DNA of 64,000 bases, taken from NCBI RefSeq assembly GCF_030867145.1, contig NC_134434.1, forward strand, positions 8,308,001 to 8,372,000. The letters run 5' to 3'. The notes below the pieces were generated by a model, which ran no database searches, was not told where the DNA came from, and saw only the letters and a list, made by a program, of their open reading frames with translations. The stretch comes from Opisthocomus hoazin. Taxonomy: Eukaryota; Chordata; Aves; Opisthocomiformes; Opisthocomidae. Made by a program: the position numbers and the translations under genes. Below are positions 21,501 to 44,500 of this stretch, piece after piece (the first letter of the stretch is position 1; each line of letters begins with the position of its first letter).

Positions 21501-24500
21501 CAGTTTCCAGGTGAACCCCTCCAGCTCAGTCAGGGATCGGGCAACACAGATGCACAGAGCCAGGCATTCTAGGGACAATTCTCAGCCTCCTTGGTTGGGC
21601 TGAGGTACTACAAAGGCCTCCAAAAGGATATTTAACAGCTGCAGCTGCGCAAGAGAAGCACTAGAAATTCCAGTGGCAGATAAGCAGTGAGGTAACAGTC
21701 TAATAAGCAGACACTCGGAGGAAAAAAATCAACAAAAAACCACGTGTAATGATGCACGTTAGAGAAGACAAGAAGAATCCAAATACGGCATTTATATTTA
21801 AAGGAGTAGATATATGATGATCCCCGATCATTGGAGTTTGTAAGTGTGAATAGCAAACAGGTAAGAAGGTAGAAACTGCTTGACAGAAAAGAATAGCAAC
21901 TAAGATTTTTATACATAAGAAAACCCAATAGTTTTAACTCAATCTACTACTCTGGCAGCCATGAAAGGGAAATCCTGTCTGGACAAAAGTAAAACATTGT
22001 TCACCCAGAGAGGTATGTGGCTGTCAGAGGGCCCCAGAGAGGTTGTGCAACCTTCATTCCTGGAGTTTTTCAGAACTGGACTGCAACCTTGCCTGGACAT
22101 TAGCTCTGCTTCGAGCAGGAGGCTGGAACAGAGACCTCCAAATGTCCCTTTAAACCTGATTGTTTTTCTGATGCTCTGACACTAGAGAGCTAAATCTCTT
22201 ATTGCTTTACCACAGGGTGCTGTGCTTGCAGCAAAACCAGCCCAGTTAGTTACCTTGCAAGTGTTCCAGTAACTGCTGCAAAAGCCTTTTTGATAGGATT
22301 AATTTCTTCCAGTATGGCTTCTTGTGACACCTTATCCAAGCACAAGAGGCTGCACAGGTGAACCAGATCATCTTTAAGTGCTGGCAGCGTGAACCCTTCA
22401 ACTACTGTGAGAACGGTGAGCCCCAGAGCTAGTTTACTTTTTATTACTATGTCCTCCTGCGATGCTTTTGCACCTTCTGGTGCAAGGAAAGGACGAGCTA
22501 TTTTCCTCATGTATTTCAGCAGCAAATCATTCACCTAGGATAAAGAAGAGAGGAAACAAAACAACCACAGTATTAGTTCCCCAACAAGTTTTTTTCTTCT
22601 GAAGCCATCTTCTGCTGCTGGTTACAGCGAGGACACTTGATAGCCCCGTACAGCCCACGGCACCATGGTGGTACCGGGATCTAAGCACACGTGGTACTGA
22701 CCACCACCAGAACACCAGGCATGACACCCCAGTACCTGTGATGGTTTGGTGCCCCTCTCCGTGCTACCAGCTCCCACCACTCAGCTACTGCTGCCCCTTC
22801 CCACACCCAGCAGAGTTGGGAAGCGCCAAGGGACCAGGGCAGATCTCTGTAGGGGAACCCGTGAGCTGAGCAGTTGTACACCGAATGCTGCCTAAGGTCA
22901 CCACTGCACTCTGCAAGCAGAGACCAGCTTCCCAGAGGACTTGGGCTTGGTTGGGAGTCAGCAAAAGGAGAGAGTTTTCTGTCCTCACCCGCAGACCCCA
23001 AAAGCTACTCTGAAACCACGTCTAGGGGGTCCGTAGTACTGTGGTCCCTGGCAATACCAAAATCGCCCTTCTTAAAATCAGCAACGACACCAACACCCAC
23101 GGACTCTGTGGCCTCTCCTGCATCACCAGGAGCAGGGAGGCTGCGGAGAGTTGGAAACGAGCAGCCCTGACATCAGTCCAAAGCCCCAAAAAAGGACAAT
23201 GTGACATTTCTGCCACATTTCATAATTATGCCAGGGAAGAAATGTAGGACTCCACAAGCCCTGTCTGCACCACTGCTTAGGAATGGACCGGGAAGATCTC
23301 ATCTCAAAAAAAAAAAAAAAAAAGGCAGACTTGGAGGCCAAGATGAGCACAGAGATATCGGTGACAGAGTGACTGGCAGCAAAACTACAGGGCAAGGCTT
23401 AGGAAATTAATGTCCAGACACACAACCCACTCCAGTAAGAAGCCGCCACATCACAGCTCTGCTGCGGACCAGTCTGGGATACTCCGAACAGCACCTAACC
23501 GTAAAGGTGTGATGAAGTTCCCGAGGCAGACAGTGGCAGTCACCCCGAAAGGATCCCGCCACTTCTCTCCCACCTGAACTTTTTGACTAGAAAAACAAAA
23601 CGAACCCAACAAGGTCAAGAACAAAATTAAAGTTCTGTGTTTAGAAACTGAGTGTCTGTTTTCTAGTATCTGTTAAAAGAAAACGGATTACCTGCTGCGT
23701 TCCAAAGTCTAGCTCTGTCCACGGCATTTCCCGGCCGTCACACACCCATGGGTGACTTGTTACTACATAAAACTGTGTCAGCTGGGAAAGGAAGTTTCTC
23801 AGGTTGTCGGGACTCCAGGCTCCAAGAATGCTGAAGATACTTTCTAACATAATGCTTGCTGCTATCATCTTCCCTCTCACCACATCTTTGTTGTTATTGC
23901 GAGAAAATATTTTCTGAATGTTTTTCATTATAGAAGGCTCTGCACACACAATGTCGTCATACTGATGCCATTCTAGAAGGAGGAACACAGACGAGAACAC
24001 AGGAAAACAAACACATATTTGCACATGCCTTCACACTTTCAGCTCCCCACAGAAATGCCTCCACTGACTCATTAAGTTTCCAGCTTCAGACAGTGCTGCC
24101 TAATAACCACGCTAGTCTGTATGAAGTCAGAGATCATCCCAATACACAGATCCCCTCAGAAAAGCTCACCTCCATTGCTGAGCAAGTCGCCTTCTATGAA
24201 CAAGCAGCGATTCACATGATTACTTGATACGGAGCGCTTGTAAATAAATTCATACTTCCCTCCACTACAGGTAACCCAGTATTTGTAAGGAATGGGTTTA
24301 TTCACACTTTCTTTCGCAAGAGTTACATTGCCTTCAATGAGGTATCCATGTCCTTCGAGACGCCTGGGAAACACAAAACACAGCAAAGGAGGGCAAAGGA
24401 CAAATCAGCTGATCTATACACTTCCTTTTCCACACATTACTCCATTTGAATAGGACCGGTGATTATTCTCTCGCGATGAAAGTTTCAGAATAGTTACCTC

Positions 24501-27500
24501 CACTGTGAAAACCCTCGGTAGCCATACTGACCTACGGACATACAGCTACAGTCGTACGTATGAAATGAGGTACCACACTGCATCCTGTTCTTCAGAGCCA
24601 AACCACCTCGGTGCCTCCCTGCGACTCCAGAGGGTACTCACTTGGTGCAGTGCAGCTCGCAGATGTTGTCCTTCCAGCTGGCATAGGCAGCAATGCCTTC
24701 AGCCCTGATGAACACTTTATGGGTCTCAGGGTCTAGTTTGAAGTCTTTGGATAATATTGCGTGGAAATACACTGTAACACCTTCACGTCGGCTCACAGAA
24801 CTACAAAAGAGAATTAGAAGGAAAATAGAAAGAATTCTAATTTTTACCTTTTTTTTTTTTTTTTAAATTGCACAAATCATTATAAACAACAAATGATATT
24901 TGAGCCACCAGCTTACTGGATGCAAGACCCGTAAGCTGTGTCAGCAGCTCACTCAGACTGATGTGACAGAACAAGCCGAGCCCAAAGCCTAGAGCAAGAA
25001 GGAAAACTGGGTTCCTACAGGCAGCATGAAATGCTCCGGCCACACGCATCTGGGTCACTGCATTGGCAAGCCAAGAGAAACTCCTCACCCAGCAGTCACC
25101 TGAAATGGCCATGCTTTATCCCTCGTCCAGCTCACACCCGTTAAGCAAAACAAGTGACACTAACCAAAACAGCTCTTCGTACCATTGATCTGAAGAGTCA
25201 CATCTCTGAAGCACATCTGGCTCCTAACAGTAACAAGAGCGCAACCTCCTTTTTTTATTCATCAGATACCCAAAAAGGTTCAAGCAGCAAGTGTACCACA
25301 TTGCCCAGTACACGACCTGTGCTGCAACTCCCAGCTGAACGTTGGCTCTCTTTTGCATAAGCAGTTTATCTCGATTTTAAGGCAAGTCTATTTCCACATA
25401 TCCAAGACACACACAGACCTAACCTTTGTACTTCAATCCCCTGTCTTATTCTGGAGTCCTCTAGTGCTCCTCACCAAATCCTGTCAGTGAAGAACGCTGG
25501 GGATCAGCACGGGGGTACTCACCTTTCTTTAACCTTATCCACAGGTCGCTGGTTCCTCTTTTGCTTTTTTTCTGTTACAGCTGAAGCATGATCCTTTCTA
25601 GCACCCTCAGGTCCTTTGGTTGGACTTGCCTTCACAGTCACCTCACGCACTTTCTCACCTGGGGTCCCCTTTTTCTCCTTTGCGACTTCGTTCTGCGACA
25701 GGAAGACAGACAAAGCCCAGTTCAACAGCAGACTCTGGCAGCACAACATCCGCAGAAGTGTCCAAAATCTCTGCAGAGGGGTGGGGATTCCCAGAAATCG
25801 CAGCACACCAGCTAGCCTCACACTTCTGCAAACGCTCATCCCTCACAGAGGAAAGACACTGGCTAAAGAAAACACTGCAGGACTGCGAGAGGAATCCAGC
25901 CCTCAGACAGGGGCAAGAAGTCAGGTCAGGAAGCCACAGGTCCCCCGAGGACGGGGCACAAAGACAATGACAGATAACTGTCGTGGTGTAATGGAAGCCA
26001 GCGAGAGCTGAGTTAACACACACCTGGAAGAGCTGGCTGGAGAAGAGACAAGTTCACTGCTCCCGGGGGTAACTGAGCAACCGCTCAGCGAGAAAGCTGC
26101 GCTAGAAATAACACACAGGAGAGCGACACCCAAACGAAACACCTCGTGTGCTCCCTGCTGTCTCCCCATAGCCCCAGCCCCACGGTCTCCAGCTTTACCG
26201 ACAGCACAAACCAGTCACAAAGGGAAACTGGGCCCAACTCAACCAGACACGCACCAGAGTGTGCACTCCCACACTGACCTCGCGAGTCGAATGGCTCACT
26301 TTCTGCCCAGTGTCTTGTTGATCCTTCCCAGCCTGCGAGCTTCTCACTGCAGGTGGAGTCTGTGCATCTTGGCTTCGACGTTCAGCAGAAGCAGCCGCGG
26401 GCGTATGTCCAGGCGCTCCCGTACCAGGAGATGGCCCAGACGAAAGGCTCGCTCGCTCACCGGTTGAGGCCGCTTTCTCGCCACTACCCGAAGACTGGAA
26501 ATCTGCTCGGCTTTCTGCAAGCTGGCCAGCGTCAGGGGCATGACTGCCACCTCCCACACTCCCTTGGACCGTTTCTCTGTGCTCTGTGGTGCTTCCACCC
26601 CCCACCTTCTGCTTTGGGGCCGCAGGGCTTGGAGAAGGGGCAGCCACATTATCCGCGCCCCTCTGCTTTGGTGGGGTCTTCACATCTACGCTGCTGGGAC
26701 TGCCTTCTGCAACTGCTTCCAGACTTCCAGCTTCCTTTGCCGAGTGACCCAACGCCCTGCCGCTTCCACCTGCGCCTCCGCTGCTGCCAGCAAGTACATC
26801 AGCACCCAGCTTGGCTGCTTCACCACCTGGGCTTTGCATTTCTTCTGCAGTAACACAGGCATCGGGCAGCTCTGGGCTTTCAGCTGCTGCTGTGCTTAGA
26901 GGAGGCAGAGTCTCCTGCTCCCCAGAGATGGAAGGATCCTTCTTTCTTTTTTTCCTCTTCTTTTTCTATTAAACAAAAAAAGGAACACCACAATGTCTGT
27001 TTATTCATCAAATAGAAATTCTTTGTCACCTCCTACACCGCAGCTGGTACCAACATCTTCCTGCTACGCTGGGTGAAAGGGGAAGGGTCAGGAAGAGAAG
27101 GGACAAGGGCAGCTGCCACCCACTATAGCAGGTGAAATGCAAGTAACACTGGATTGCAATAGTTTGTCAAGAGCAGTTTTAGAACTCACAACTTTCTCAT
27201 CAGGAACACACAGCAGCTCTGAGCACGATGCTCACTAACAAGACCAGACCAACTACTGAGCTGAAATCGCTGCTGCTTCCCTCGGTGCAGCAAAGCTCCT
27301 GTCCGGGGGAGCTGCACCGCTCAGCACAGCAGCTGCCCGCACACGCAACCCTTCACGTAAGCAAACGCATCCAGTTTGCCTCGGAGCACAGGCAGCAGCA
27401 CCGCAATGCAGGCCAAAGGGACCCGTGGCGATGCACCCAGGCTCCGTGCTTGACAAGAGAGAGAGCAGCGAGCCACCAGCTCCCCCTGCTCCTCAGCACC

Positions 27501-30500
27501 GGCAAAGAGCCTTACCCTCTTCCGCGACTTCCCAGAAGAATCACCGGCCACGCGCCGGGCTGCGGCCTCTGAGCTACCGCTCGGAGCCGTTACACCCTCC
27601 AGCAGCGATGCTCCCTCTTCCCGCTCCTCCCGTGTGTCGGCAGAGGAAGGAGGCCCACCCGCAGCGCGTTCAGCTGTGCTCTCCGGGGCACCGATCCGAG
27701 CAGCCTCAGGTGCTTTGGTTGGACTTGCCTTCACAGTCACCTCACGCACTTTCTCACCTGGGGTCCCCTTTTTCTCCTTTGCGACTTTGTTCTGCGATAG
27801 GAAGACAGACAAAGCCCAGTTCAACAGCAGACCCTGGCAGCACAACATCTGCAGAAGTGTCCAACATCTCTGCAGAGGGGTGGGGATTCCCAGATATCGC
27901 AGCACACCAGCTAGCCTCACACTTCTGCAAACGCTCATCCCTCACGGAGGAAAGACACTGGCTAAGGAAAACACTGCAGGACTGCGAGAGGAATCCAGCC
28001 CTCAGACACGGGCAAGAAGCCAGGTCAGGAAGCCGCAGGTCCCCCGAGGACGGGGCACAAAGACAATGACAGATAACTGTCGTGGTTTAACCCAGCTGGC
28101 AACAAAGCACCACACAGCCGCTCGCTCACTCCCATCCCCCCAGCGGGATGAGGGGAAGAGAACTGGAAGGGTGAAAATGAGAAAATTCATGGGTTGAGGT
28201 AAGAACAGTTTAATAATTGAAATAAAATATAATAATAATAATAATAATTTAAAAATGTAATGAAAGGGAAAATGACAAAGAGAGAGAAATAAAATGCAAG
28301 GAAGACAAGTGTTGCAAATGACAACCAGTGCTCACCACCAACTGATCGATGCCCAGCCAGTCCCCGAGCAGCGGCCCCCCGCCCCACCTCCCGCCCGGTT
28401 TCATTGCTAAGCACGACGGCATACGGCGCAGAATACCCCTTCGGTCAGCTGGGGCCAGCTGTCCCGGCTGTGTGTCCCCCCAGCTCCTTCTGCCCCTCCA
28501 CCCTCCTCGCTGGTGGGGCAGCGTGAGGAGCAGGAAGGGCCTTGACTCTGTGTAAGCACTGCCCAGCAATCACTCAAACATCCCGCTGTTATCCACACTG
28601 TTTCCAGCACAAATCCAAAACATAGCCCGGTACCAGCTACTACGAAGAAAATTAACTCTACCCCAGCCAAAACCAGCACGATAACCAACAGCAACTCGCC
28701 ACTTGACACGCCTGTCCGTGAGCGGAGCACAGACACTGACGAAGCATGAAGACCTCCGCATTCGAGGAGATCCGACAGAGCTCACGGGAAGAGCTGGCTG
28801 GAGAAGAGACAAGTTCACTGCTCCCGGGGGTAACTGAGCAACCGCTCAGCGAGAAAGCTGCGCTAGAAATAACACACAGGAGAGCAACACCCAAACGAAA
28901 CACCTCGTGTGCTCCCTGCTGTCTCCCCATAGCCCCAGCCCCACGGTCTCCAGCTTTACCGACAGCACAAACCAGTCACAAAGGGAAACTGGGCCCAACT
29001 CAACCAGACACGCACCAGAGTGTGCACTCCCACACTGACCTCGCGAGTCGAATGGCTCACTTTCTGCCCAGTGTCTTGTTGATCCTTCCCAGCCTGCGAG
29101 CTTCTCACTGCAGGTGGAGTCTGTGCATCTTGGCTTCGACGTTCAGCAGAAGCAGCCGCGGGCGTATGTCCAGGCGCTCCCGTACCAGGAGACGGCCCAG
29201 ACGAAAGGCTCGCTCGCTCACCGGTTGAGGCCGCTTTCTCACCACTACCCGAAGACTGGAAATCTGCTCGGCTTTCTGCAAGCTGGCCAGCGTCAGGGGC
29301 ATGACTGCCACCTCCCACACTCCCTTGGACCGTTTCTCTGTGCTCTGTGGTGCTTCCACCCCCCACCTTCTCCTTCGGGGCCGCAGAGCTTGGAGAAGGG
29401 GCAGCCACATTATCCGCGCCCCTCTGCTTTGGTGGGGTCTTCACATCTACGCTGCTGGGACTGCCTTCTGCAACTGCTTCCAGACTTCCAGCTTCCTTTG
29501 CCGAGTGACCCAACACCCTGCCGCTTCCACCTGTGCCTCCACTGCCACCACCAAGTACATCAGCACCCAGCTTGGCTGCTTCACCACCTGGGCTTTGCAT
29601 TTCTTCTGCAGTAACACAGGCATCGGGCACCTTTGGGCTTTGAGCTGCTGCTGTGCTTAGAGGAGGCAGAGACTCCTGCTCCCCGGAGATGGAAGGATCC
29701 TTCTTTCCTTTTTTCCTCTTCTTTTTCTATTAAACAAAAAAAGGAACACCACAATGTCTGTTTATTCATCAAATAGAAATTCTTTGTCACCTCCTCCACC
29801 GCAGCTGGTACCAACATCTTCCTGCTACACTGGGTGAAAGGGGAAGGGTCAGGAAGAGAAGGGACAAGGGCAGCTGCCACCCACTACAGCAGGTGAAATG
29901 CAAGTAACACTGGATTGCAATAGTTTGTCAAGAGCAGTTTTAGAACTCACAACTTTCTCATCAGGAACACACAGCAGCTCTGAGCACGATGCTCACTAAC
30001 AAGACCAGACCTACTACTGAGCTGAAATCGCTGCTGCTTCCCTCGGTGCAGCAAAGCTCCTGTCCGGGGGAGCTGCACCGCTCAGCACAGCAGCTGCCCG
30101 CACACGCAACCCTTCACGTAAGCAAACGCATCCAGTTTGCCTCGGAGCACAGGCAGCAGCACCGCAACGCAGGCCAAGGGGACCCGTGGCGATGCACCCA
30201 GGCTCCGTGCTTGACAAGAGAGAGAGCAGCGAGCCACCAGCTCCCCCTGCTCCTCAGCACCGGCAAAGAGCCTTACCCTCTTCCGCGACTTCCCAGAAGA
30301 ATCACCGGCCACGCGCCGGGCTGCGGCCTCTGAGCTACCGCTCGGAGCCGTTACACCCTCCAGCAGCGATGCTCCCTCTTCCCGCTCCTCCCGTGTGTCG
30401 GCAGAGGAAGGAGGCCCACCCGCAGCGTGTTCAGCTGTGCTCTCCGGGGCACCGATCCAAGCTCTTGCATTCTCCATCAGCGATCCTCCCTCCTCCTGCT

Positions 30501-32430
30501 TTGTTTCAGTGGTGGGAGGGAGCCCTTCAGCACCTTGTCCCTTCACATCTCCTCCAGACTCTGCTCCTGTATCGGGGACTGGAGTGAGCTTCCCCTCTCT
30601 TCTTTCTGCAGTGGAGGCAAGGTTCAGTGTTAAACTAGAGTCAGGAAAGAAAACAGTTTTCAGCTGCTGGTGAGCAAACAGGGTCCGTCACTGATTAAAT
30701 GTTATCAGCTGAACACACAGGAGCTGCTTTGTTGTTCCCCGTCCAACAGCTGCCACCAGCAACAACACCATCCTCCCCAGCACAGCTTCCTTCCCTCTCC
30801 AAGGCCCCTGCAGTCTGCAGCAGAATACTTATGATAAGAAACCACTGTACTGAGGTATTGATCTATCCCTACCCCACCTCCAGGTACCATGCCGCTGGTC
30901 GATGTGGCAGGCACTGGGAACCACAACTGCCTGTCAAAACGCTCTGGGACGCCCAAGACGCGCGGTGACAGTACACCGGCATTCCTCAGTTCGCACAGCC
31001 TCCGGCACTGGCTGGGTGACCTCTACCACACAGCTGAGTGTTGTGGCCAGGAAGGCTTGGGAAACTCTCTTTTCATCTTCCAACAGTTTTGCCCAGTCCT
31101 TAAAACCTGTGAAAAGGCAGCTCAGATCCGCGTCAGGCACCAGAGCAGACCTCTACCTTCTACAGACCTGCGCCACAGGCTCCCCAGAACTGACTCTACC
31201 TCTACTTCGAGAGCAAAAGCTTTTAGCCTCTTTGAGTGCAGATCAACCAACACCAGGAGACATCAACTTCCTCTGGATGTTTTTGGGAGCAGGAGCACAA
31301 AAAATCAAGGGGAAGGTATCTCACTGCTCCAAAGGCTGCACCATGCTTAATGACAGTGGGTTGTTTTGTACCTGAAGCAGGCACCTGTTGCAACACTGTT
31401 TCGCATCCAATTTACTATCACATCACTATCTGAAGAGTTTAAACTCTTCCCTGAGCTCTTCCTGCTCCTCAGTGACTCCTCTGCTGACAGGACTTGACCT
31501 ACACATGTTTACTTCGTGGAAATCCCCAGTCCCTGAGACAGGGAGCATATTTACCCAGTAAAGCACTACAGCTCCTTCCACCATCCTTAATCATTGCCAG
31601 AAGCAAAGCTTTCAGACCACCAGAAGAGATGCTTTGGATGTTTTTTCTACAGCATTTAAGACCTGGAGGTCCTGGGTTTGTTACCTTGCCATTCTGGATT
31701 GCAGAGGGATTTGCTAAGAATTGGTCTGGTCAGGACTACAGCAGGCTGGTTCTGATTTAGTGTATTCTTTTACGATCCTACTCCTTCCCATCAACACAGC
31801 AAGAGCAATTGTGGTGGCCCAGGTCATGCTCTCTTCAAGCAAATAAAGGATTAGGAAATCTCTCTCCCCCCGTGTAACTGCATTCATTGTGTACTTGATG
31901 CTGTTACTGTTCATAGGGGCAGAACTGGCGTGTTGTCAAACAGAAATTCAGGGAGGGAATTCTCAACCTAACAATACACTGAAGATAAGAAATTCTGGCT
32001 CAAGAGGGACTAGACTGGTCTTTGTAACACAGCATTCCATAAAAACAACACCAGTTCATCGGCAAAACAGAAACCGGCTCAACGCTGGAGATGCGAGTGT
32101 GGAGAACGTGTGGAGGAGGCATCAGTGACTGCCTCGCTTCTCTCCATCCCCCATCAGGCACTGCAAAGCGAGGAAAACTCCGTCTCTGGCCACTAATGCA
32201 AGGGAAGTATGAGATGAGAGCAGCACGTAGCAACCTGGCCAGAGCAGCCCAGAGCTCCACAGGGCCCAGGGTCACCGGGCAGCCCCCGGACGCTGTCCCC
32301 CAGCACCCCCCCATCACATCCTCCTACCTGGATCCTTGTCCCCAGGGCCGGGAGCCCGCTGGGCCCCGCACTTGCTGCAGGGACCGGGAGCATCATCCCC
32401 AGCAGCCGAGCGAGACGCGCGGTGCTCCAT
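209..32430 (-). CDS. RNF213: RNF213 (mysterin), giant AAA+ RING-type E3 ubiquitin ligase; 3' end off the left edge
   Basis: I assembled 35 coding exons from splice sites and phase. They total about 11.67 kb and roughly 3,890 codons in one open frame, from ATG at 32430 to the donor at 208. The protein follows human RNF213 (5,207 aa) almost segment by segment: disordered lysine-rich N-terminus, CBM20-like module, helical arm, then AAA+ modules with two intact Walker sets. It stops before the RING, which lies to the left of the window. In the family, RNF213 is a cytosolic dynein-like ATPase and E3 ligase that coats lipid droplets and intracellular bacteria; human variants predispose to moyamoya disease. 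The 5' part carries about 321 extra codons from a tandem duplication. The individual exon groups are listed as separate entries. The gene identity is certain; a few exon edges, noted below, are less so. Confidence 0.97.
4467..8060 (-). CDS. RNF213: RNF213 giant exon 29, catalytic AAA+ modules
   Basis: This single 3,594-bp exon (1,198 codons, phase 0 at its start) runs from an acceptor TGCCAG at 8061 to the donor GTGAGT at 4466. It contains two full ATPase sites. The first has Walker A GETGCGKT (about residue 307 of the exon) and Walker B LFFDEANTTE (about 371). The second has Walker A GKPGSSKS (about 656) and Walker B VVVLDEIGLAED. They match human AAA3 and AAA4, whose Walker B glutamates support ATP hydrolysis. 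Flanking stretches such as YELTTDNVLKILAIEMRFRC and GFVGISNWALDPAKMNRGIF are almost identical to mammals. A very large exon at this place is also seen in mammalian RNF213. All key residues visible are intact. Confidence 0.98.
8748..13078 (-). CDS. RNF213: RNF213 exons 23-28, entry to the AAA+ core
   Basis: The exons are 12861-13078, 12179-12319, 11809-11970, 10223-11363 (1,141 bp), 9301-9494 and 8748-8900. Near-invariant RNF213 stretches are present: FVDLASISAGENDMDVDR, WLKTVKESHGSVELSSL, ELQNKLMLMS, AFIDLYSAGNMLFRSW, LPTFDEVLLCTP and, across the 10223/9494 splice, AGVGKSLYVKRLHERL. The last resembles a P-loop (GVGKS) and corresponds to one of the first, degenerate AAA modules. The exon at 8748-8900 encodes QYLTDNNGHMWLRQKHHLYI. 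A CR1 fragment sits in the intron at 8953-9170. Confidence 0.94.
8953..9170 (-). mobile_element. CR1 LINE 3' fragment in an RNF213 intron
   Basis: Read on the plus strand it starts with the reverse complement of a CR1 tail (TCACAGAATCATAGAA). GGAAAGGATCTCTGGAGATC, TCTAATCCCCCCTGCTCAAA and CTCTGGGCAGCCTGGTTCTA follow. It lies in the intron between exons 8748-8900 and 9301-9494, in the same orientation as RNF213. Confidence 0.9.
13723..23972 (-). CDS. RNF213: RNF213 exons 9-22, N-terminal helical arm
   Basis: The exons are 23692-23972, 22254-22534, 21046-21234, 20326-20524, 19590-19645, 19168-19321, 18527-18679, 17797-17895, 16865-16987, 16291-16471, 15511-15651, 15074-15232, 14188-14780 and 13723-13879. 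All phases match. Recognisable RNF213 blocks include EWHQYDDIVCAEPS, WLEGLPFAE, CLTCWLKLHKRVC, AWDEFVKISFPDEQ, LLWRRREEVALLRKEKEA and DWVDQRFEQIQQYHEMH. This is the long helical arm that precedes the motor in the published structures. The acceptor of the last exon is uncertain: the site at 13879/13880 preserves phase, and the one at 13884/13885 does not. Introns hold a CR1 fragment (21995-22182) and an A18 run (23306-23323); otherwise I see nothing in them. Confidence 0.9.
21995..22182 (+). mobile_element. Degraded CR1 LINE fragment in an RNF213 intron
   Basis: The sequence has CR1-like blocks TTCACCCAGAGAGGT, CTGGAACAGAGACCTCCAAA and a TCTGATGCTCTGA tail. It is more diverged than the other CR1 copies here and antisense to RNF213. 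Confidence 0.65.
24170..24800 (-). CDS. RNF213: RNF213 exons 7-8, CBM20-like carbohydrate-binding module
   Basis: The exons are 24642-24800 and 24170-24363. They encode the segment containing GVTVYFHAILSKDF, HKVFIRAEG, GHGYLIEGNV and PYKYWVTCSG, then YEFIYK and VNRCLF. These align with the human CBM20-type fold (GITVFFHAIVS, HKVFVRGG, PYKYVIYNGK, YEFIYK, VNRCLF). CBM20 modules bind starch or glycogen-like glucans in other proteins; a sugar ligand for RNF213 is not established. The segment follows the disordered N-terminus directly, as in mammals. Confidence 0.9.
25523..25692 (-). CDS. RNF213: RNF213 coding exon 6, last exon of the disordered N-terminus
   Basis: The acceptor follows CGACAGAACG's CAG at 25693 and the donor GTGAGT starts at 25522. 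The exon encodes a Lys/Glu-rich stretch beginning NEVAKEKKGTPGEKVREV and ending VDKVKE. It joins in phase 2 to the CBM20-like exon at 24642-24800. Its first roughly 90 bp, with the upstream intron, are the source of the 5' half of the chimeric exon at 27516-27791. The remaining 3' part is outside the duplicated unit. Confidence 0.82.
25603..27702. repeat. Tandem segmental duplication, unit A (2.1 kb) inside RNF213
   Basis: Sequence from about 25603 recurs from about 27703. It starts just inside the coding part of exon 6 and ends inside the copied part of exon 2, so the unit holds part of exon 6, all of exon 5 and part of the chimeric exon, with their introns. The offset to unit B is 2,100 bp at the left end and 2,761 bp after the LTR in unit B. 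Differences are scattered and few by eye. The edges were placed where similarity stops, so they are good to a few bases. Confidence 0.93.
26279..26965 (-). CDS. RNF213: RNF213 coding exon 5, lysine-rich patch plus disordered segment (duplicate copy A)
   Basis: This is the sister of the exon at 29040-29726: same length (687 bp), same phase 0/0, same acceptor and donor. It begins KKKRKKRKKD and runs open to HSTRE before donor GTCAGT. By eye the two copies differ at only a small percentage of positions, including several amino-acid changes, and neither has a stop. This argues that both copies stay under coding constraint or are recent. The flanking intron sequence is duplicated too, so this is a genomic duplication and not a processed copy. 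Confidence 0.83.
27516..27791 (-). CDS. RNF213: RNF213 coding exon 4, chimeric exon made at a tandem-duplication junction
   Basis: This 276-bp, phase 0/0 exon has no single parent. Its 5' part begins NKVAKEKKGTPGEKVREV and copies the exon at 25523-25692. Its 3' part, ending in SGKSRKRV, copies the end of the exon at 30277-30605. The junction is at about 27700-27706, where both parents carry a GCT codon in the same frame, so the fusion stays open. The acceptor (GATAG's equivalent of GTCGCAG in the sister exon) is inherited from one parent and the donor GTAAGG from the other. Whether it is spliced into mature mRNA cannot be shown from DNA, but frame and both splice sites are intact. Confidence 0.78.
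28078..28679 (-). mobile_element. Solo LTR of an avian endogenous retrovirus (fossil)
   Basis: A roughly 602-bp element is bounded by TG...CA-type ends, reading on the minus strand from a TGCTGGTTTTGGCTGGG-like start to a GGGTTAAACCACGACA-like end. This terminal sequence is characteristic of a frequent LTR family in bird genomes. Direct repeats GATAAC flank it at 28072-28077 and 28680-28685; a 6-bp target duplication would suit a class II (ERVK-like) element, but I cannot fix the family by eye. An AAT-rich microsatellite lies inside. There are no internal viral genes: it is a lone LTR in the intron between RNF213 exons 3 and 4. Confidence 0.82.
29040..29726 (-). CDS. RNF213: RNF213 coding exon 3, lysine-rich patch plus disordered segment (duplicate copy B)
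   Basis: This symmetrical 687-bp exon (229 codons, phase 0 at both ends) starts at an acceptor after TTTAATAG and ends at donor GTCAGT. It opens with a run of Lys/Arg (KKKRKKGKKD), matching the KKKRKKKKK patch of human RNF213. It continues as an Ala/Gly/Ser/Pro/Glu-rich stretch that looks intrinsically disordered. A near-identical exon of the same length lies at 26279-26965. Because both ends are phase 0, either copy can be added or skipped without a frame change. Confidence 0.85.
30277..30605 (-). CDS. RNF213: RNF213 coding exon 2, acidic low-complexity N-terminal segment
   Basis: The acceptor CTGCAG ends at 30606 and the donor GTAAGG begins at 30276. The 329-bp exon joins the start exon in phase and encodes an acidic, Ser/Gly/Glu-rich, probably disordered stretch ending in the basic motif SGKSRKRV. 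The 3' part of the exon (about 30277-30461) is the parent of the second half of the chimeric exon at 27516-27791. The 5' part (about 30464-30605) is single-copy. A second possible acceptor at 30634 also leaves an open frame but does not match the phase of the start exon. Confidence 0.72.
30606..32327. other. RNF213 intron 2-1 interval, no feature recognised
   Basis: This 1.7-kb stretch lies between coding exons 1 and 2. Short open frames on both strands lack splice logic or resemblance to anything I know. The side near 32300 is GC-rich and belongs to the promoter CpG island. Confidence 0.6.
32328..32430 (-). CDS. RNF213: RNF213 first coding exon with the start codon
   Basis: The exon runs from ATG at 32430-32428 to a donor reading GTAGGA at 32327. 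It encodes about 34 residues, including a single zinc-knuckle-like pair, CSKCG. The human protein begins with a short zinc-ribbon-like segment having two CxxC pairs; only the second pair has a counterpart here. The exon ends in phase 1, which fits exactly with the acceptor of the next exon at 30605. Upstream, a pyrimidine-rich tract at about 32460-32500 looks like the acceptor region of an intron, so the 5' UTR probably continues from a separate noncoding exon. A different or additional start exon cannot be excluded. Confidence 0.6.
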
Positions 32431-33689: not shown

Positions 33690-33960
33690 GCCCCCTCCCC
33701 CGGGGGTCCCGCCCCCTCCCACCGCGGGTCCCGCCCATTCCCGCCGGAGGTCCCGCCCCCTCCCACCGCCGTCCCGCCCTTTCCCACCGCGGGCCCACCC
33801 ACTCCACCGCGGGCCCGCCTCCTCCCACTGGGGTCCCGCCCACTCCACCGCGGGCCCAACCCCTCCCCGGGAGGCCCCGCCCATTCCCACCGCGGTCCCG
33901 CCCATTCCCACTGAGGCCCCGTCCCCTCCCCCGGGGTCCCGCCCCACCTGCCGGGCCCGG
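33690..33960. repeat. C-rich minisatellite with GC boxes between RNF213 and SLC26A11
   Basis: Repeated units of about 20-22 bp with the form CCCGCCCCCTCCCACCGCGG fill this stretch. Each unit carries a GGGCGGG-type Sp1 box on the minus strand. The array lies just upstream of the IRF-like motifs, so it may act as part of the RNF213 promoter. Confidence 0.75.
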
Positions 33961-41599: not shown

Positions 41600-44500
41600 A
41601 TGCGGCCCTGGGCGCTGGCGCTGCTGCTGGGCGCGCTCCGGACCGGCGGGAGCCCGGCCCCGGCCCGCAACGTGCTGCTGCTCCTGGGTGCGTGCGACCC
41701 CGGCCCGCCTGAGCCCCGGCACCGCGCCCGGCTCCGCCCCCCCCCGCCCTGGGAGCCGCCCCGCCATGGGGTGCCCCTGCGTCCCCCCGACCCCACCTGC
41801 GTCCCCCCGACCCCACCTGCGTCCCCCCGACCCCGCGGGTCCTGCTTCGTCCCCGCAACCCCGGGGGTTCCCCTGCGTCCCCCCCCACCCCAGGGCTCCC
41901 GCTGCGTCACCACCACCCCGGGGGTTCCCCTGCATCCCCCCGACCCTGGGAGTTCCCCTGCGTCCCCCCCACCCCGGAGGTTCCCTTGCGTCCCCCCGAC
42001 CCTGGGGTACCCCGGCGTCCCCCCACCCCCCCTGCCTCCCCCCGACCCTGGGGGTTCCCCTGCATCCCCCCGACCCCGGGGTTTCCCCTGCATCCACCCC
42101 ACCCCCCCCGCCTCCCCCCCACCCCAGGGCTCCCGCTGCGTCATCCCCACCCCGGGGGTTCCCCTGCATCCACCCCACCCCCCCCTGCCTCCCCCCCACC
42201 CCAGGGCTCCCGCTGCCTCCCCCCCGCCCCAGGGGTTCCCCTGCGTCCCCCCCAACCCCTGGCCAGCCTCCGCCCGGGGCTGCTCCCGGTGCCACTCGTG
42301 TCCCCTGGGCTTTGCCCGCCGCCGCGGTTCGGGGCAGGCTGGGGGTCGGGCCCTGTGCCCCAGGGCTCACCCCGCTCCCCTCCCGCTGCAGCTGATGACG
42401 GCGGCTTCGAGATCGGCGCCTACAACAACTCGGCCATCCGGACGCCCAACCTGGACGCGCTGGCCCGGCGCGGCGTGGTCTTCCAGAACGCCTTCGCCGC
42501 CGTCAGCAGCTGCTCCCCGAGCCGGGCCAGCATCCTGACCGGCTTACCCCAGGTACGGGCACCCGCAGGCGCCGGGCCGGGGGCTGCCCTTCCATGGTGG
42601 GCACCCAGGGGTGACAAGGGCCGGCGTGCTTGCAGCACGGTCACCGGACCTGGCAATGCCCCCGTGCCCGCAGACCCACTCTCTGCCGTGCCCCCCGGTC
42701 CTGCCACCTGTGCCCGCACGCTGGGCACGCAGCTGGGCTTGTTTCAGGGCCATCCAGCTGTGTCGTGTCCCCCTCCCGCAGCACCAGAACGGGATGTACG
42801 GGCTGCACCAGGACGTGCACCACTTCAACTCCTTTGGCAGCGTGCAGAGCCTGCCCCGGCTGCTCCGCCGGGCACGCGTCCGGACAGGTAGGGAGCGAGG
42901 GGCAAGGGGCATGGGCAGGGGTCCCCCCTTCCTCCGTGCACCGAACCCCTCGGGCGGGAGGGCTTGATGGCTGACCCATCTGGGAGCTGGTGAGCAGCGG
43001 CCGGACCCGTGCCCGTGCTCCATGCTGATGCCTGGGTTTCACATTCCTTCCTCCCACTGCTGCCCCCCTGCCATGCTCCTCACACCTCGCCTCCGCTGCT
43101 GCCCCTCACCCCGCTCCTTCCCGCTTCCCGGGTCCCCGCAAGGCTCGTGCTTGACCCAGACGCCCACCCGGGCCGCTCGGCTGCCTGGCACTCACCTGCG
43201 CCGGTGGCCAGCAGCAGCGTGGTCCCCGCGCGGGTCCCATTTTCGGAGCAGACACAGAAATGCCTCCGTAACTGGCAAAAGAGACTGGAGAAGCCGGCAG
43301 CGCCTTCCGCTCTCCGCAGCGTCTTCTGGAGCCGGTGCTGGCGCGGATGAGCTGCATCGGCCCCCGGGGAGGAGCCGGCGGCAGCGGCCGGCGTCGCAGC
43401 CCGGCTCCCCGCGGCTCCTGGCACGCCGCCTCTGCCTTCTCGCAGGGATAATTGGGAAGAAGCACGTTGGGCCTGAGGACGTCTACCCCTTCGACTTCGC
43501 CTACACGGAGGAGAACAGTTCGGTCTTGCAGGTTGGGAGAAACATCACTCGAATCAAAGCGCTGGTCCGGCGGTTCCTGCAGAGCCAGGACGAGAGGTGA
43601 GACGGGCCCCACGTCCCAGGGGGCTGCGAGGGGCCACAGGAAGGAGATGGAAAGCTCGCTGGAGACGCGTCTCCACGTCGCGGCTGGTCACAGACAGGAA
43701 GGGACACCTTGTCTCTGGGTCACCCCACATCCAGAAGCCCAGATTAGGTGGGGGTTCTCCCACCGGCCCCAGCTCACCCCAGCTCACCCCGGGGAAGGTC
43801 TCGAGAGGCGTGGGCAGCCCTTTGCTGCTCCACCTCCACCCTCTCCATCTCTAGGCCTTTCTTCCTCTACGTCGCCTTCCACGACCCCCACCGCTGCGGG
43901 CACTCCCAGCCCCAGTACGGGGCCTTTTGCGAGAAATTCGGCAACGGAGAGAGTGGCATGGGCTGGATTCCGGACTGGAAGCCACAGCTCTACCACCCAG
44001 AGCAAGTGCAGGTGGGAGCCCGTGGGGCCGCACAGGGCTAGGTGGGGCTGTGTGGGGACATATAGGGGCTGCATGCGATGGCAGCCTATGACGGAGCCGG
44101 TGCATCTGCGGGCTGGCCCCCGCCTCGGTCACTGCCGTCAGCATTATGGGTGGGAGCTGGTGAAGGCCACCCCGGTGCATCCGCAACCTCCTTCCCCGTG
44201 GCTGTCACGTGCCGCTTTCCCTCCCTCCGTTTAGGTCCCCCACTTTGTTCCAGACACGCCGGCTGCCCGGGCGGACCTGGCAGCCCAGTACACAACCATC
44301 GGGCGCATGGACCAAGGTAGGAGCCGCGGGGGCCAGGCTGGTGCCGGCGAGCACCGCGGTCCCTCCCCCCCCCTCAGCTCTGCCGCTCTGTCCGCAGGGA
44401 TCGGGCTGGTCCTGGCCGAGCTGCGGCGTGCCGGCTTCCACAACAGCACGCTGGTGATCTACACCTCTGACAACGGCATCCCCTTCCCCAGCGGAAGGAC

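Follow-up and report, generated by a model that had tools for sequence, protein, structure and literature searches.

A chimeric exon at the junction of a tandem duplication in the N-terminal part of Opisthocomus hoazin RNF213, and its seam in RNF213 records of other birds

RNF213 (mysterin) is an E3 ligase that carries a CBM20 domain and a dynein-like core. Tandem duplication of exons within a gene, with concerted evolution of the copies, is a known general kind of change, and birds have an in-frame exon duplication in ANP32A, a host factor of infection. Here we describe a duplication in the RNF213 gene of Opisthocomus hoazin, located on the minus strand of a 64,000-nucleotide (nt) stretch of contig NC_134434.1 (positions 8,308,001 to 8,372,000), which was analysed whole and is hereafter called the window; all coordinates are those of the window. 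By its matches to solved structures the gene is the same as known RNF213, and its duplicated part lies before the CBM20 exons; unlike known RNF213, it has a second lysine-rich exon and a chimeric exon. As in other intragenic duplications the exons lie head to tail and are kept alike within species, but here both breakpoints fall inside exons, giving a hybrid exon. The avian ANP32A case is likewise a bird-specific in-frame duplication in an infection host factor, although in a different gene, and we know of no chimeric exon seam there. Among the literature matches listed (titles and starts of abstracts, with subscription papers and preprints outside the scope), none reported a chimeric exon or a second lysine-rich exon in RNF213.

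An earlier note on this DNA had proposed a head-to-tail duplication with breakpoints inside coding exons and had suggested comparing the window with itself. This comparison (self-BLAST) confirmed the proposal, returning two head-to-tail blocks with defined breakpoints, one pairing 26026-27701 with 28787-30462 (1676 nt; 98.4% identity) and the other pairing 25600-25991 with 27699-28090 (392 nt; 96.4%). The duplicated stretch extends from inside exon 2 to inside exon 6. The two blocks share 3 nt, 27699-27701, which form a GCT codon on the minus strand, and it is at this in-frame codon, as had been read before, that the junction exon (27516-27791) joins the 5' part of exon 6 to the 3' part of exon 2. 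The features concerned are, in the order of the gene:

32328-32430, minus strand: RNF213 coding exon 1, from the ATG, ending in phase 1 (gene model).
30277-30605, minus strand: exon 2 (E2), full length, its 3' part duplicated from 30462 onward (splice sites, frame and self-BLAST).
29040-29726, minus strand: lysine-rich exon, upstream copy (K_u), 229 codons (self-BLAST and gene model).
28078-28680, minus strand: long terminal repeat (LTR)-like insert of 603 nt in an intron of the upstream copy (read by eye; GTTAT at 28681-28685 and at 28073-28077).
27516-27791, minus strand: chimeric exon, 276 nt, 92 codons, phase 0 at both ends, 5' part from exon 6 and 3' part from exon 2 (self-BLAST and gene model).
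27699-27701, minus strand: seam codon GCT, common to both parents (overlap of the two repeat blocks).
26279-26965, minus strand: lysine-rich exon, downstream copy (K_d), 229 codons, 11 residues unlike K_u (gene model and copy comparison).
25523-25692, minus strand: exon 6 (E6), full length, its 5' part down to 25600 duplicated (self-BLAST and gene model).
23692-24800, minus strand: next three exons (24800-24642, 24363-24170 and 23972-23692), RNF213 N-terminal region with CBM20 (gene model and PDB match).

The gene thus reads exon 1, E2, K_u, chimera, K_d, E6 and then the CBM20 exons, E6 being the exon immediately before these and the duplicated part lying wholly ahead of them. Each of the five exons from E2 to E6 is preceded by AG and followed by GT, with phases that agree and a frame that stays open, so that the splice borders given earlier and phase 0 at both ends of the chimeric exon hold. 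The model encodes 962 amino acids (aa) without a stop, against 641 aa when the chimera and K_d are left out; the gain of 321 residues and the second 229-codon lysine-rich exon are as had been predicted. The start codon of exon 1 was picked by position and by a CxxCG motif which we take to be that of RNF213.

The unit length of 2.1 kb put forward previously fits the downstream copy (2.10 kb), whereas the upstream copy measures 2.76 kb because of the 603-nt insert, presumably of the LTR class. Just before the same GTTAT, the downstream unit has 13 bases that match the insert end with one mismatch (read by eye), and therefore probably once contained the insert and then lost most of it.

Identification of the gene as RNF213, also made in the earlier note, was confirmed along three stretches by comparison with chains in PDB. 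Two long open stretches of the body of the protein match solved RNF213 chains, over 389 residues (E = 7e-125) and over 1200 residues (E = 0), while the three exons next in the gene after the duplicated part align over 207 residues with the RNF213 N-terminal region containing CBM20, with a best E value of 1.1e-50 (7oim). The human chain 8s24 aligns with the same three exons (E = 5.3e-50) at positions 413-622 in the chain's own numbering, tags unchecked. According to PMC11549300, CBM20 of human RNF213 spans 378-515.

The seam is not private to Opisthocomus, as the same one is found in RNF213 records of flamingo, kakapo and razorbill and in one open reading frame (ORF), P0009. Two ORF searches found 6 and 4 related ORFs, respectively, and in P0009 the E6 arm passes directly into the E2 arm. 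The protein search used the first 1050 residues of a longer query and allowed full-length proteins; it scored 7963 candidates and retained 254, of which the best 120 were examined; these include non-birds and incomplete models and are only 90%-identity cluster representatives and chosen isoforms, and they leave absence in any bird unproven. When modules were counted by phmmer domains, Phoenicopterus ruber (P0011; 5493 aa) proved to have the complete double arrangement, and both Strigops (P0025) and Alca torda (P0064) to have the chimeric exon, while the records of Amazona, Neopsephotus and Melopsittacus have one unit each. All four modules (E2, lysine-rich exon, E6 and CBM20) were present in 52 of the 120 proteins and the seam in two of these 52 (P0011 and P0025), the E2 match of P0025 being the chimeric arm itself.

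A 57-residue profile covering the seam and its surroundings, derived from the very sequences that carry it (window, P0011, P0025, P0064 and P0009), scored those five at 93-106 bits, and the four proteins alone at 98-106 bits. Of the 131 sequences compared, the next best to align across the seam reached 33.6 bits, and one-sided matches went up to 48.6 bits; the four weaker alignments that cross the seam are E6 exons lacking the E2 arm. Carriers therefore number four among the 130 proteins examined, three of them within the best 120 of 254, and all five sequences have the seam at the same codon. An order of E6 followed by E2 is impossible by linear splicing of a single-copy gene. The comparison with other birds recommended in the earlier note accordingly found the seam, at the level of protein, and that note's account of exon shuffling by simple duplication stands as regards the tandem duplication, the in-frame chimeric exon and the coordinates, but not as regards a simple event in this bird that needed only dating.

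The three named carriers share with the window the seam codon and the order of modules around it, and differ in detail: the flamingo chimera lacks much of the exon-2 arm, the kakapo model begins inside the upstream lysine-rich exon, and the razorbill protein has lysine-rich copies cut short and a chimeric exon altered in the exon-2 arm. In P0009, the lysine-rich exon breaks off mid-way and runs straight into the chimeric exon, as after a further deletion or in a spliced product. The RNF213 bodies closest to that of the window are those of Gymnogyps, Aquila, Buteo and Mycteria (90.5-91.0%).

Divergence between the copies differs strongly between the lysine-rich exons and the arms beside the seam. 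The lysine-rich copies of flamingo differ at only 1 of 225 residues, against 9 of 31 for its chimeric and parental E6 arms (Fisher P = 1.6e-7, a value computed with 8/31 arm differences, whereas the count is 9/31). The kakapo protein contains two identical copies of a 48-residue stretch from the end of the lysine-rich exon, and its E6 arms differ at 11 of 31 residues (P = 9e-6); the corresponding figures for the window are 11/229 and 3/31. Lysine-rich exons of flamingo and the window, on the other hand, are only about 64% identical to each other. A tree of 35 lysine-rich exons pairs the copies by species (Shimodaira-Hasegawa-like approximate likelihood ratio test, SH-aLRT, 100), and topologies in which flamingo and window are joined by their upstream or by their downstream copies were rejected (18 rows; log-likelihood lower by 257 and 292; approximately unbiased test, P = 2e-5 and 3e-63, respectively). 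Copies are thus closer within than between species, the pattern of concerted evolution where a duplication is shared, as the seam suggests it is here.

The parrots allow a relative dating. Between kakapo E6 and Amazona E6 there are 3 differences in 31 residues, and between kakapo E6 and the kakapo chimera there are 11; compared with Accipiter, the kakapo chimera differs at 6/31 and kakapo E6 at 11/31. As the chimera is nearer to Accipiter than is E6 of the same bird, the change appears to lie in parrot E6, later than the separation of the copies but earlier than the kakapo-Amazona split, and to have missed the chimera; the duplication would thus predate that split, and the second unit would have been lost in Amazona, Neopsephotus and Melopsittacus.

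Within the window, the copies show 40 differences over 2068 aligned sites, besides the insert of several hundred bases. These differences are unevenly spread, with 14/392 on the E6 side and 26/1676 elsewhere (P = 0.014), as well as over six annotated features (P = 0.027), and shuffling gave P = 0.064 for the longest identical run and P = 0.018 for the clustering of runs. These values, which make up the evidence for gene-conversion tracts and come from the window DNA alone, lend mild support to patchy exchange between the copies. K_u and K_d differ at 17 codons, of which 11 alter the residue and 6 are silent (counts without a formal test of constraint). Two JGI ORFs closely match the window, P0001 with 99% identity over 84% of the query and P0007 with 98% over 61%; P0001 agrees with K_u at five of the six differing sites that it covers and with K_d at one, and P0007 has, at one site in an exon-2 context, the residue of the window's chimeric exon. 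This pattern looks like a mosaic, though old polymorphism would also explain it. The 98% identity of the copies would reflect later homogenisation and not age, since the seam is shared with other birds and, in kakapo, appears older than the split from Amazona.

We consider it probable that there was one old neoavian duplication, whose interior was homogenised by gene conversion or unequal exchange and which was repeatedly lost. A single tandem duplication early in neoavian birds would have joined exon 6 to exon 2 at the GCT codon. The hybrid exon would have arisen in this way, along with another lysine-rich exon and another polybasic run, in the probably disordered stretch of RNF213 that precedes CBM20. 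In each lineage the unit interiors would then have been kept alike by gene conversion or unequal exchange, while the arms adjoining the seam diverged in flamingo and kakapo. Exchange between long, near-identical copies could also delete one unit without a scar, which would explain the single-copy form in the other bird records examined. Three points lead us to favour one origin: all five sequences share the seam codon, although no more than GCT is available as microhomology in the window; a seam once lost would not be expected to re-form at that codon; and the arms of two species have diverged far more than their lysine-rich copies.

Several observations weigh against this reading. A tree of 37 RNF213 bodies places the window and the three named carriers in four places, with a minimum of four changes, which means four gains by parsimony on presence alone. 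The razorbill requires no old event, since its chimera differs from its own E6 at 7/30 residues, below the 10/30 between the E6 of Alca and Pluvialis. The chimeric E6 arms (15 arms, nine from carriers and six from single-copy birds) failed to form a group of their own, 31 residues being too few to resolve one: the nearest arm is their own E6 for the razorbill and window chimeras and that of Accipiter for flamingo and kakapo, and only P0009 comes nearest to other chimeras. Moreover, uneven homogenisation in the window is only mildly significant, and in the other birds the shared seam is seen at the level of protein only.

The same four changes, the nearness of the razorbill and window chimeras to their own E6, and the near-identity of the lysine-rich copies within flamingo and, over the 48 residues seen, kakapo would fit independent, recurrent duplications at the same breakpoints in several bird lineages, favoured for instance by local sequence. 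We regard this as unlikely, given one seam codon in all five sequences with a window microhomology of GCT only, and arms in kakapo and flamingo that are much more diverged than the lysine-rich copies, unlike what a recent duplication would leave. A recent duplication private to the lineage of the window, as first read, agrees with the block identities of 98.4% and 96.4%, but the seam recurs in three named birds of other orders and in P0009, which contradicts it unless the events were independent; we reject it as quite improbable. Near-identical head-to-tail copies are also a usual form of such assembly errors, and an error of assembly or a false duplication from two haplotypes would fit that much. 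It was rejected as very unlikely, the least credible of these explanations, because the seam recurs in records of other species and the copies differ at 40 of 2068 sites and by a large insertion or deletion; the seam, besides, lies inside exons with splice sites and frame intact.

A further alternative concerns function and not origin, and overlaps with the old neoavian duplication favoured above: the duplication would be real and old but inert, a tolerated disordered spacer whose exon is sometimes shortened or skipped. We give it an even chance. It is in keeping with the 11 residue changes among the 17 differing lysine-rich codons, with the loss of much of the exon-2 arm in the flamingo chimera and its alteration in razorbill, and with the absence of the seam from 117 of the best 120 proteins. 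The frame through the seam is, however, open in the window DNA, and the seam lies within three annotated RNF213 protein models, a weak point, protein records being open by nature. Each unit has a polybasic run where the end of exon 2 meets the lysine-rich exon, a second run thus being gained before CBM20; from its composition the duplicated part is probably disordered, and the chimeric exon is predicted to be expressed. According to PMC11549300, human RNF213 without residues 1-367, the part before CBM20, is partly impaired in targeting the Toxoplasma vacuole and still targets Salmonella and Listeria efficiently, and positive selection in simian RNF213 falls mainly on CBM20, the stalk next to it and N-terminal regions. 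As removal of the human N-terminal part partly impairs Toxoplasma vacuole targeting, it is plausible that doubling the part before CBM20 may change pathogen recognition or recruitment in birds; between a tolerated spacer and a change in recruitment we see the chances as about even.

Some other features of the window and of the records were noted. The window has about 70% guanine plus cytosine (G+C) over 22 kb (32000-54000), flanked on both sides by about 41-57% G+C, and within it are several G+C-rich tandem arrays, e.g. at 33690-33945 and 41816-42259. No Rfam match was found in the window at the gathering threshold. The antbird Pithys albifrons (P0043) has a long run of an 18-residue repeat in its lysine-rich exon, at roughly residues 250-560, and Oenanthe (P0065) a shorter repeat in the same exon; in other birds this region would thus expand by other means. 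Phaenicophaeus (P0041) has a small internal duplication within the E6 module (residues 327-397), distinct from the seam. Two quail RNF213 records (P0084 and P0089) carry the Pfam domains PF00916 and PF01740 beside those of RNF213, probably by annotation fusion with a neighbouring transporter gene.

Overall, the percent identity between the copies is a poor guide to their age at this locus, and units of this kind may have been collapsed in short-read assemblies of other birds. More tentatively, and short of an even chance, the locus may behave as an exon accordion in an innate immune sensor, in which a chimeric exon that arose a single time near the base of Neoaves lies between two gene-converted copies, so that recombination can add or delete the unit and leave no scar. 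If so, copy number would vary between species, and perhaps within populations, and would tune the length and the number of polybasic segments before CBM20. The seam is a rare and nearly unmistakable genomic marker, with which the birth date of the hybrid exon and the number of its losses in birds can be tested.

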